A DNA stretch of 31,601 nt from a virus. Shown here one piece after another: positions 16,509-23,438 of this stretch. The notes under the pieces were generated by a model, which was not told the origin of the DNA, did not search any database, and saw only the letters and a list, made by a program, of their open reading frames with translations. The translations under genes were made by a program, and so were the position numbers. Location: IMG/VR virus record IMGVR_UViG_3300037672_000677, positions 1 through 31,601 of that record; one strand, given 5' to 3'. Positions within the stretch are counted from its first letter, which is position 1. The number at the start of each line of letters is the position of its first letter.

Positions 16509-16510
16509 TC

Positions 16511-16543
16511 ATAAAAAAAAAACCTCTACAATATGTAGAGGTT
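16511..16543 (-). terminator. Strong intrinsic terminator
   Basis: Perfect 10-bp stem (AACCTCTACA/TGTAGAGGTT), 3-nt loop, then a run of at least eight T on the minus strand. It ends the riboswitch-peptide-DUF4278 unit. Confidence 0.92.
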
Positions 16544-16573
16544 AACGACAAGTAGATGTTTGTCAACTACTGA

Positions 16574-16717
16574 TCAGCTCTTAGATGCGAACTTGCGTTC
16601 CACCTTGACACCACGATACATTAGATCGTGACGTTGCTTCTTAGCAGCTTCTTCGAGTACCTTTGCATTGTACTCGGCAGAGTCATAAGAGACTCCTCTG
16701 TATGTGACTTGTGCCAT
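16574..16717 (-). CDS. DUF4278-like protein
   Basis: 47 residues from ATG 16717, with AGGAG 10 nt upstream; the frame upstream of this is not supported by a ribosome site. MAQVTYRGVSYD at the start and LMYRGVKVERK at the end give the paired YRG motifs of DUF4278, a small cyanobacterial domain of unknown function. Basic overall. It is the second gene of the glutamine-riboswitch transcript and is followed by a strong terminator. Confidence 0.7.
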   Translation of the reverse strand: MAQVTYRGVSYDSAEYNAKVLEEAAKKQRHDLMYRGVKVERKFASKS

Positions 16718-16763
16718 CGGTTTTACTCCTGTAAGTAGTAGGGGGGTTTTAAATCCCGTTCCT

Positions 16764-16928
16764 TCAGTCGTCATTTGCGTCCCAGCACCCAGGCGTTGAC
16801 TCTTGCATAACAAGAATCAGTTCCGCCTTCTCGTTCTCACTTAACGTGTTGTTCCTAAGTATTCGATCAGTAATGTCGAATGCTTGAGAACACTCAAGTG
16901 AAGTATAGAGTAACAAGAGAGGTATCAT
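16764..16928 (-). CDS. 54-residue riboswitch-controlled peptide
   Basis: ATG 16928, 14 nt after the riboswitch aptamer. Hydrophobic N-terminus MIPLLLLYTSLECSQAFD (possible membrane or signal segment), then a charged helix (DRILRNNTLSENEKAELILV) and the end STPGCWDANDD. In hosts, the Downstream-peptide type of glutamine riboswitch precedes just such short reading frames. It could sense or signal nitrogen status, for example by binding a host regulator; this is inference only. Confidence 0.7.
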   Translation of the reverse strand: MIPLLLLYTSLECSQAFDITDRILRNNTLSENEKAELILVMQESTPGCWDANDD

Positions 16929-16941
16929 GGGATGAACGATC

Positions 16942-17002
16942 CGTTCCGTGTCGGCTTACTTGCGTCCCCTCATTCTGCCAAAGGCAACTTGGGGGATGAA
17001 CG
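16942..17002 (-). promoter_or_regulatory. Glutamine riboswitch (glnA / Downstream-peptide type)
   Basis: Read on the minus strand from 17002: P1 arm CGTTC, then ATCCCCC, an apical TGCC-TTT-GGCA hairpin, GGGGACGCAAGTAAG, a CCG-ACA-CGG hairpin, and the closing arm GAACG. This order and the conserved ACG-AAGTA core match glutamine aptamers of the glnA/Downstream-peptide classes, known from marine cyanobacteria and a cyanophage. Just downstream a second CGTTCATCC (16938 to 16930) can pair with the closing GAACG arm and so compete with P1, a visible candidate expression platform directly before the peptide start. Confidence 0.82.
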
Positions 17003-17011
17003 TGTGTGTTA

Positions 17012-17040
17012 ATTATAACACAATGCAATTATTTATGCAA
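17012..17040 (-). promoter_or_regulatory. Promoter of the riboswitch unit
   Basis: TTGCAT (17040 to 17035) - 17 nt - TATAAT (17017 to 17012). The expected start falls about at 17004, right at the first base of the aptamer, so the leader is almost entirely riboswitch. Confidence 0.8.
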
Positions 17041-23295: not shown

Positions 23296-23342
23296 TTGAA
23301 AAAGGGTTAGGTAATAGTGCAGGGATACACCGATAAAATATT

Positions 23343-23412
23343 CCTTCGCCACCCTCAGGCGGAGGTATAAGAGACGTAATTTAATGACCCATAGGTCTCG
23401 GTTAGCGGGTCA
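23343..23412 (-). promoter_or_regulatory. psbA leader with two hairpins
   Basis: In the minus-strand leader, TGACCC pairs with GGGTCA (23407-23412 and 23385-23390), and further on CCT-CGCC pairs with GGCG-AGG across a 7-nt loop (23343-23365, one mismatch). No reading frame of note occurs here. It may be a stability or light-response element; comparable structured psbA leaders (PhotoRC motifs) are known in marine cyanobacteria and phages, but I cannot confirm a match. Confidence 0.5.
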
Positions 23413-23438
23413 GAAAGATGTTGGAATCAACACCCCTA

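Follow-up and report, generated by a model that had tools for sequence, protein, structure and literature searches.

A probable composite glutamine-type aptamer holding a peptide gene in the loop of one of its stems in cyanophages

The window, that is, the whole stretch of 31,601 bases analysed here, is a cyanophage fragment from an IMG/VR virus record, and its gene content, read by eye, is that of a T4-like cyanophage. Rfam thresholds were passed in the window by PhotoRC-II and four tRNAs; the PhotoRC-II RNA lies at 23330-23423 (72.1 bits), ahead of a gene that we named psbA-like by eye. On the minus strand, we found by sequence comparison what we read as a composite glutamine-type aptamer of 246 nt (16757-17002) with a peptide gene inside it. 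Its outer stem P1 opens with the 5' strand CGTTC (16998-17002), whose partner GAACG lies at 16757-16761. Behind this strand come the P2a hairpin (16965-16996; TCCC at 16993-16996 and GGGA at 16965-16968), supported by covariation, the core CGCAAGTA (16957-16964; Rfam consensus CGGAAGUA), and the 5' strand of P3, AGCCG (16952-16956), whose partner CGACT is found at 16766-16770. They are followed by the inner hairpin P1' (16934-16946), made of GAACG (16942-16946), a GAT loop and CGTTC (16934-16938), and by the 5' strand of P2b, TCCC (16929-16932), which abuts the start codon of the peptide gene and has its partner GGGA at 16780-16783.

The peptide gene occupies the loop of P2b (16764-16928), and encodes 54 amino acids of the phrog_504 family (E 2.4e-17). 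The 3' part of the aptamer (16757-16783) consists of the P2b strand GGGA, CGCAA, the P3 strand CGACT, GAAG and the P1 strand GAACG, and overlaps the last codons and the stop of this gene. A second CGTTCATCC is located at 16930-16938 on the minus strand, and its partner GGGACGCAAATGACGACTGAAGGAACG at the far end of the 54-codon gene. Downstream, the Shine-Dalgarno-like sequence AGGAG (16726-16730) belongs to a gene for a 47-residue DUF4278-like protein with two YRGV motifs (16574-16717, ATG at 16715-16717; phrog_5049, E 1.2e-22), and a hairpin with a T run, resembling an intrinsic terminator by its sequence, lies at 16513-16543. On the other side, the inverted repeat TGTGTTA-TAAT-TAACACA (17005-17022) abuts the aptamer as a 5' hairpin, and its loop region holds the -10 box of a sigma-70-like pair on the same strand (TTGCAT at 17035-17040, 17 nt, TATAAT at 17012-17017). 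A box resembling T4 late promoters, CATAAATA (17030-17037), overlaps the TTGCAT of this pair.

A sequence-only reading of the same DNA had described an RNA of the glutamine-riboswitch type followed by a short peptide and a DUF4278 gene; this description was borne out, and the peptide is conserved among phages. The parts it named, CGTTC...GGGGACGCAAGTAAG...CCG-ACA-CGG-GAACG at 16942-17002 on the minus strand, the second CGTTCATCC, the two ORFs and the terminator-like hairpin, all lie where it put them. It took the aptamer for this 61-nt piece, with the peptide simply downstream, and missed the 3' part at 16757-16783; the element spans the peptide gene, which sits in the P2b loop. The hairpin CCG-ACA-CGG exists in the window but is not general, since 241 of 305 units carry AGTCGC at this place.

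That reading had also proposed a hit above an Rfam threshold as a test. The 5' part of the window scored 25.2 bits against RF01739 (glutamine type 1; gathering score 35, E 0.0042) and 25.1 bits against RF01704 (type 2; gathering score 33, E 0.00056), the latter with mismatches in the second stem. Both scores are below gathering, so this test fails for the window, and the inserted gene is the likely reason. Among the seven short-loop relatives scanned with RF01739 (L014, L075, L111, L113, L114, L235, L237), six reached its gathering score (40.2, 37.8, 36.2, 36.0, 35.7 and 35.4 bits); unlike them, L075 stayed below it. Against RF01704, L014 reached the score of 33 with 35.7 bits and 4 mismatched pairs, and L237 only just did so with 33.0 bits and 1 mismatched pair. 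In L014, the reading that Rfam scores highest is the composite, at 40.2 bits.

In the composite, the outer P1 would pair the first CGUUC with the last GAACG, and P2a would be a local hairpin. P3 would connect the bases that follow the first CGCAAGUA with those that precede the last GAAG, bringing CGCAAGUA and GAAGGAACG together in a match to the Rfam consensus. At the tip of P3 there would be a second, permuted junction, formed by the hairpin P1' (GGAACG-GA-CGUUC) and the stem P2b. The loop of P2b would be the peptide gene, which would begin with its start codon at a foot of this stem and end with its stop inside the 3' strand of the aptamer. The type-1 features P1 (CGUUC/GAACG), P2, the CGNAAGUA core and the closing GAAGGAACG are all present when the element is read in this way, and for the type-1 P3 helix, which links the AGUA side to the GAAG side, there is an AGTCG/CGACT-type pairing that covaries as a whole.

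A pattern search of IMG/VR for the 5' aptamer returned at least 120 stretches. Among the matches listed, CGTTCATCC-ATG starts a small gene in the downstream DNA, and GGGACGCAAA..GAAGGAACG overlaps the end of that gene. By the strict pattern, both halves are present in 75 of the 123 matches listed, which include L001, a duplicate of the window; 7 of the 75 have cut downstream DNA. With the relaxed pattern, 234 sequences yielded 218 unique places that bear a gene; at three of these (L177, L180, L208), the ORF lies in another frame. A short loop stands in place of the gene in L014, L111, L113 and L114, and a DUF4278-like frame then comes in the last three.

We examined the stem P2b, which joins the two feet of the gene, in the window and in L002-L126, loci that were found mostly by their first half; the pattern fixed only the G of pair 2. 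Pairs 1-4 are standard in 92 of 92 second-half units. Pair 4 covaries, being kept in 33 of 33 distinct strand pairs, a result reached by 0 of 5000 shuffles, and the strand types are TCCC/GGGA, TCCT/AGGA and CCCC/GGGG. In two units, a change of U-A to C-G (CACCCC/GGGGCG) turns the peptide ending WDAND into WGAND. The RNA motif is kept despite a frame shift (L094, L102) or an early gene end (L040, S-CAM1). At loci that were not selected by the RNA motif, WDAND has its Ala encoded by GCA in 72 of 72 cases, compared with 80 of 212 upstream Ala codons, and its Asn by AAC in 72 of 72, compared with 52 of 169 upstream Asn codons. As judged from these sequences, the peptide ending WDANDD* is encoded by the aptamer core.

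The same flanks were found when loci were chosen by protein. The best 80 of 262 loci matched by the peptide gave 55 distinct phrog_504-type genes, with CGTTCA (41) or CGTTGA (14) as the 5' flank and the 3' flank present in 54 of 55; the other carries GATGCA. For the other loop, P2a, the best 80 of 559 loci matched by the phrog_6471 protein in L161 gave 65 distinct genes. All 65 have the 5' flank and 64 the 3' flank, the remaining gene being cut by the contig end, and the second half follows the gene directly in 63 of 64. The P2a pairs at these genes often reach seven, AUG included. The conservation of the peptide in related phages, which the sequence-only reading had expected, goes far beyond chance: tblastn (E up to 0.01) matched it in 287 phage records, and the flanks are nearly always present.

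These results bear on the view that a single short glutamine aptamer lies upstream, the peptide is simply downstream of it, and GAACG/CGTTC forms a switch hairpin. That the 5' part matches the two Rfam glutamine models, if below threshold, would fit this view, and so would the P1' pairing, which is kept by a double change, but it leaves the fixed codons and the gene-less relatives unexplained. Because it also accounts for neither the 3' part nor P2b nor P3, we rejected it as very improbable. As had been noticed, there is a pairing between the second CGTTC and the first GGAACG, but in the best-supported fold it forms a standing inner hairpin, P1', which is at most a putative on/off switch.

Next to P2b, the composite reading rests on P3 and P1'. 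Across 305 units, the segment after the first CGCAAGTA and the segment before the last GAAG pair in 12 strand combinations, including AGTCG/CGACT, AGTCA/TGACT, AATCG/CGATT, AGACT/AGTCT and AGTTG/CAACT. Pairs 1, 2 and 4 of P3 are kept in 305 of 305 units, pair 5 in 303 and pair 3, as U-A or A-U, in 260; the third pair is non-standard in the other 45 (C.A in 44, A.C in 1), and is C.A in the window itself. That this mismatch is nearly always C.A looks as if a fixed-shape mismatch were tolerated or wanted. In the 31 distinct P3 segment pairs, 141 of 155 cells are paired, which none of 5000 shuffles reached, and when the partner is slid by 1-3 positions at most 66 of 139 cells pair. Taken singly, the P3 pairs covary weakly (the observed value is reached by 9 to 628 of 5000 shuffles). 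The inner strands that form P1' are GGAACG/CGTTCA in 291 of 305 units and GCAACG/CGTTGA in 14 of 305; by a looser count, there is also one GCAACG/CGTTAA. All 14 variants have CGTTCA as their first outer strand, and they may go back to few events.

A different explanation of the locus would be a tandem of two ordinary glutamine aptamers that have separate P1 stems: the peptide gene would be an over-long P2 loop of the second aptamer, or an alternation between tandem and composite folds would be the switch. Tandem glutamine riboswitches are known, and the part of the survey available to us gives 157 doublets and 4 triplets (PMC9481103). In addition, the second half alone is the best RF01739 reading, over gathering, in L111, L113, L114, L235 and L237. 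The tabulated units argue against it, since their first half is without the GAAG side of the core and their second half without the AGUA side, and P3 covaries between the two halves. In the 14 GCAACG/CGTTGA units, with CGTTCA first and GGAACG last, each of the two tandem P1 stems would lose its inner pair, while P1' and the outer P1 are kept.

Folding energies were compared in 295 units. The composite is lower in energy than the tandem fold in 272 of them, and the tandem fold is lower in 23, including the window (-77.4 vs -77.0 kcal/mol). Unconstrained minimum free energy (MFE) structures contain the outer P1 in 272 of the 295 units, the first tandem P1 in 9 and P1' in 251. For 55 short-loop units, the numbers are 52, 3 and 37, respectively; these leave out 76 unparsed places, among which the core CGGAAGTA or a gene in P2a sometimes occurs. 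For L014 and L075, the predicted fold is exactly the composite. We gave up the simple tandem model because of the P3 covariation and the P1' variants, and consider the tandem or alternating explanation unlikely as a whole, although composite and tandem folds may both exist.

The composite was also recovered in part by RNAalifold. For 39 natural short-loop units, a diverse pick of the 55 that forms alignment A5, the consensus contains the outer P1, P2a, P1' and P2b; P3 was not called in these units, and P1 and P1' show no variation across them. With P3 included in the structure, 96.8% of cells pair and 11 of 23 pairs have double changes. Of the five measures, four lie above every one of the 500 shuffles; the fifth, the number of pair types, does not (101/500). 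P3 alone is paired in 85.1% of cells in the 39 units, with 17 double-changed cells against 5.4 in shuffles and a non-standard third pair in 25 of the 39, and two of its five measures do not exceed shuffles (matched by 173 and 305 of 500). A covariance model built from short-loop units, R1, does not span the gene, matching the 5' part (37.4 bits) and the 3' part (13.2 bits). It matched each of 19 named-phage loci once (17.8-88.3 bits), and spanned the whole unit in the gene-less phage Bellamy.

To sum up these comparisons, the anatomy is that of a composite aptamer, which looks as if it had been built from two merged copies. The whole reading, namely a single type-1 glutamine aptamer of composite build, in which an inner junction is nested and the P2b loop holds a gene, together with glutamine-coupled expression, is in our judgement probable.

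The element is widespread among cyanophages. Paired halves are present in all 17 phage records first fetched, which were picked from similarity lists; P-TIM68 and AG-345-P14 have no loop gene, and P-HM2, S-CAM1 and S-IOM18 have genes in both P2 loops. In eight further records, picked for variety, the RNA is without a loop gene in S-PM2, Bellamy, S-H34, ACG-2014f and MA10, and has one loop gene in P-SSM2, S-B05 and Syn1. Within the sample of 295 units, which were selected by pattern and protein, a gene lies in P2b in 283, in P2a in 84 and in neither in 7; one unit has a long gene-free loop. The phrog_504-like gene in the P2b loop of P-SSM2 (L406, 800-949) is without annotation, and the loop genes of P-HM2 are annotated as plain hypothetical genes. 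In S-RIM2 (L242), the P2a stem is kept around an apparent short remnant of a second gene, apparently a stage of gene loss. A scan of genome contigs for the gene-bearing pattern found five, none of them labelled cyanobacterial, with the peptide only in L131. This contig, from a MAG labelled Euryarchaeota TMED129, carries the cyanophage element and is probably a misbinned phage contig; the four others look like chance matches.

A homing-endonuclease-related gene interrupts the P1' loop in L216 (1590-2398) and in L228 (= L308), and thus a third loop of the aptamer RNA has taken in a gene. The L216 protein, which was the one searched, matches the homing endonuclease family phrog_314 (E 2.5e-8); in Pfam, it matches DUF7467 alone, under the cut-off (E 0.056). 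Inserts of this type are partial in L164 and L196, and a short remnant is left in L179. After the first element, L216 has a second hairpin with TATAAATA, plus a CGTTCATCC (2399-2440), and may on this sequence evidence carry a second riboswitch downstream.

Such insertions, the homing endonuclease in the P1' loop included, are what would be expected if the aptamer had decayed and no longer bound glutamine, its stems being kept for mRNA stability or for clasping start and stop, with the loop genes as passengers, as homing endonucleases are in intron loops. The core of the window also lacks one G of the Rfam consensus, having CGC in place of CGG. However, some relatives do read CGG there (L514, L515, L522), and CGCAAGUA and the closing AAGGAACG are present in all 31 segment combinations in 305 units, although the pattern fixed only CGCA and GGAACG. 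Furthermore, the downstream gene is still DUF4278-like in the eight cases tested. We regard decay as highly improbable.

In the window, DUF4278 (PF14105) scored 26.4 bits on the extended ORF and 28.8 bits on a 46-residue piece, against a Pfam cut-off of 25.3. Three of the eight downstream proteins pass this cut-off, the window's included, and the other five score below it (16.3-23.1 bits) with DUF4278 still the best match. In cyanobacteria, DUF4278 is reported as the N-terminal part of IF17, the inactivating factor of glutamine synthetase, and host glutamine aptamers, according to the sections of that paper accessible to us, mainly precede DUF4278 genes, whose expression is activated by glutamine (PMC6316151). 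A PII-interacting peptide, which the earlier reading had placed under such riboswitches, found no support there; the accessible text names DUF4278 genes and IF17 instead (PMC6316151).

The peptides of phrog_504 have C13, C48, D50 and A51 invariant in 30 sequences. AlphaFold2 predicted two helices for the peptide (mean pLDDT 82.5), and the best named viral matches in a structure search were cyanophage proteins, none under E 0.001. The loop proteins shown start with a hydrophobic stretch and keep two cysteines, and the start of the S-B05 protein looks by eye like a signal peptide. By profile, the loop protein families are weakly alike (A1-A2 probability 74%, A1-A3 91%, A2-A3 2%).

An inverted repeat with arms of at least 5 lies beside the aptamer in 161 of 191 distinct upstreams, compared with 64 of 573 shuffles; its arm sequences vary among upstreams, and the pairing is kept. 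We applied a test for the TATAAATA-like box of T4-type late promoters. The late-promoter-like TA[ACT]ATA is present in 243 of 261 upstreams (19/261 shuffled), yet a sigma-70-like pair is present in 232 of 261 (4/261 shuffled). The TTGCAT/TATAAT pair that had been named as the promoter does exist, but its role is doubtful, since TATAAT lies in the loop of the 5' hairpin and the late-like box is as frequent. The hairpin, overlapping the apparent -10 box, could be a structure of the RNA 5' end or a promoter feature.

How the element would work can be proposed from its anatomy and from what is known of the family. Glutamine would stabilise the composite fold and favour expression of the DUF4278 protein, in line with reports on type-1 and type-2 glutamine riboswitches in hosts. 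To judge from the anatomy, the start or end of translation on the loop gene would have to melt P1', P2b and P3, so that translating the peptide and forming the sensor would work against one another. At high glutamine, less peptide and more DUF4278 protein would then be expected. This protein belongs to the family found at the N-terminus of IF17, and its target may be the glutamine synthetase of the host. Predicted accessibility with and without P1/P3 showed no difference for the DUF4278 Shine-Dalgarno sequence (0.41 vs 0.41) or the peptide start (0.31 vs 0.31), in 103 usable of 111 sampled rows with the window counted twice.

We tentatively suggest, as an idea that has somewhat less than even chances, that the element is a protein-coding riboswitch, with genes in the ligand-binding fold and with ribosome traffic and glutamine binding competing for one RNA. 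The start and stop regions of the gene would be parts of stems, its last amino acids would be dictated by the aptamer core, and the aptamer would hold a natural permuted copy of its own junction. By this competition, the phage would read nitrogen status and its own translation together. If this is true, RNA models can miss riboswitches because a gene occupies a loop, and a conserved protein ending, WDAND, exists because of an RNA. In a widespread group of marine viruses, nitrogen sensing would be tied to a relative of a glutamine-synthetase inactivating factor, the DUF4278 protein, and this link would offer phages a possible way of acting on the nitrogen metabolism of the host.

Cyanophage glutamine riboswitches have so far been listed by Rfam matches, and the gene-bearing form in the window falls below threshold. 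S-CREM1 has an Rfam glnA match of 99 nt (44.0 bits) in the available part of its description (PMC9964418), a span that would fit a gene-less composite. The accessible text on S-SCSM1 mentions glutamine riboswitches in T4-like cyanophages (PMC9602691), and Melnitz, Mosig and AG-345-P14 appear, in the section available, among tmRNA-encoding phages listed with one glutamine riboswitch (PMC9004378). In the portions of the literature that our search returned, glutamine riboswitches of cyanophages are thus known, and we found no earlier description of a gene inside a glutamine aptamer.

The phage element resembles RF01704 (Downstream-peptide) in its P1, P2 and core, in having short ORFs nearby and in the similar score of its 5' part. 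Unlike in RF01704, the second stem is poorly formed in the window, and the ORF lies inside the aptamer, whereas RF01704 has it downstream in the part of the description available (PMC2864571). As in tandem glutamine riboswitches, going by the available part of the survey, two consensus copies stand a few bases apart (PMC9481103), but covariation joins the two copies of the phage element into one fold. The coupling of a riboswitch to the translation of a small ORF is shared with the uORF-linked B12 riboswitches of Mycobacterium, whose small ORF, unlike the phage peptide gene, is not described as the loop of an aptamer stem in the text accessible to us (PMC11260477).

The likeness to RF01739 comprises P1 (CGUUC/GAACG), P2, CG[CG]AAGUA, P3 and GAAGGAACG, and the position ahead of DUF4278-like genes, as in hosts. 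The phage element differs from it in having two merged copies, a P3 that is capped by a permuted second junction, and protein genes of about 49-75 codons inside the P2 loops. Group I introns carry homing-endonuclease ORFs in their peripheral loops, and the phage element is like them in that a protein gene is lodged in a loop of a structured RNA. It differs from them in that a riboswitch-type aptamer takes the place of the intron, and its loops usually carry genes for small proteins.
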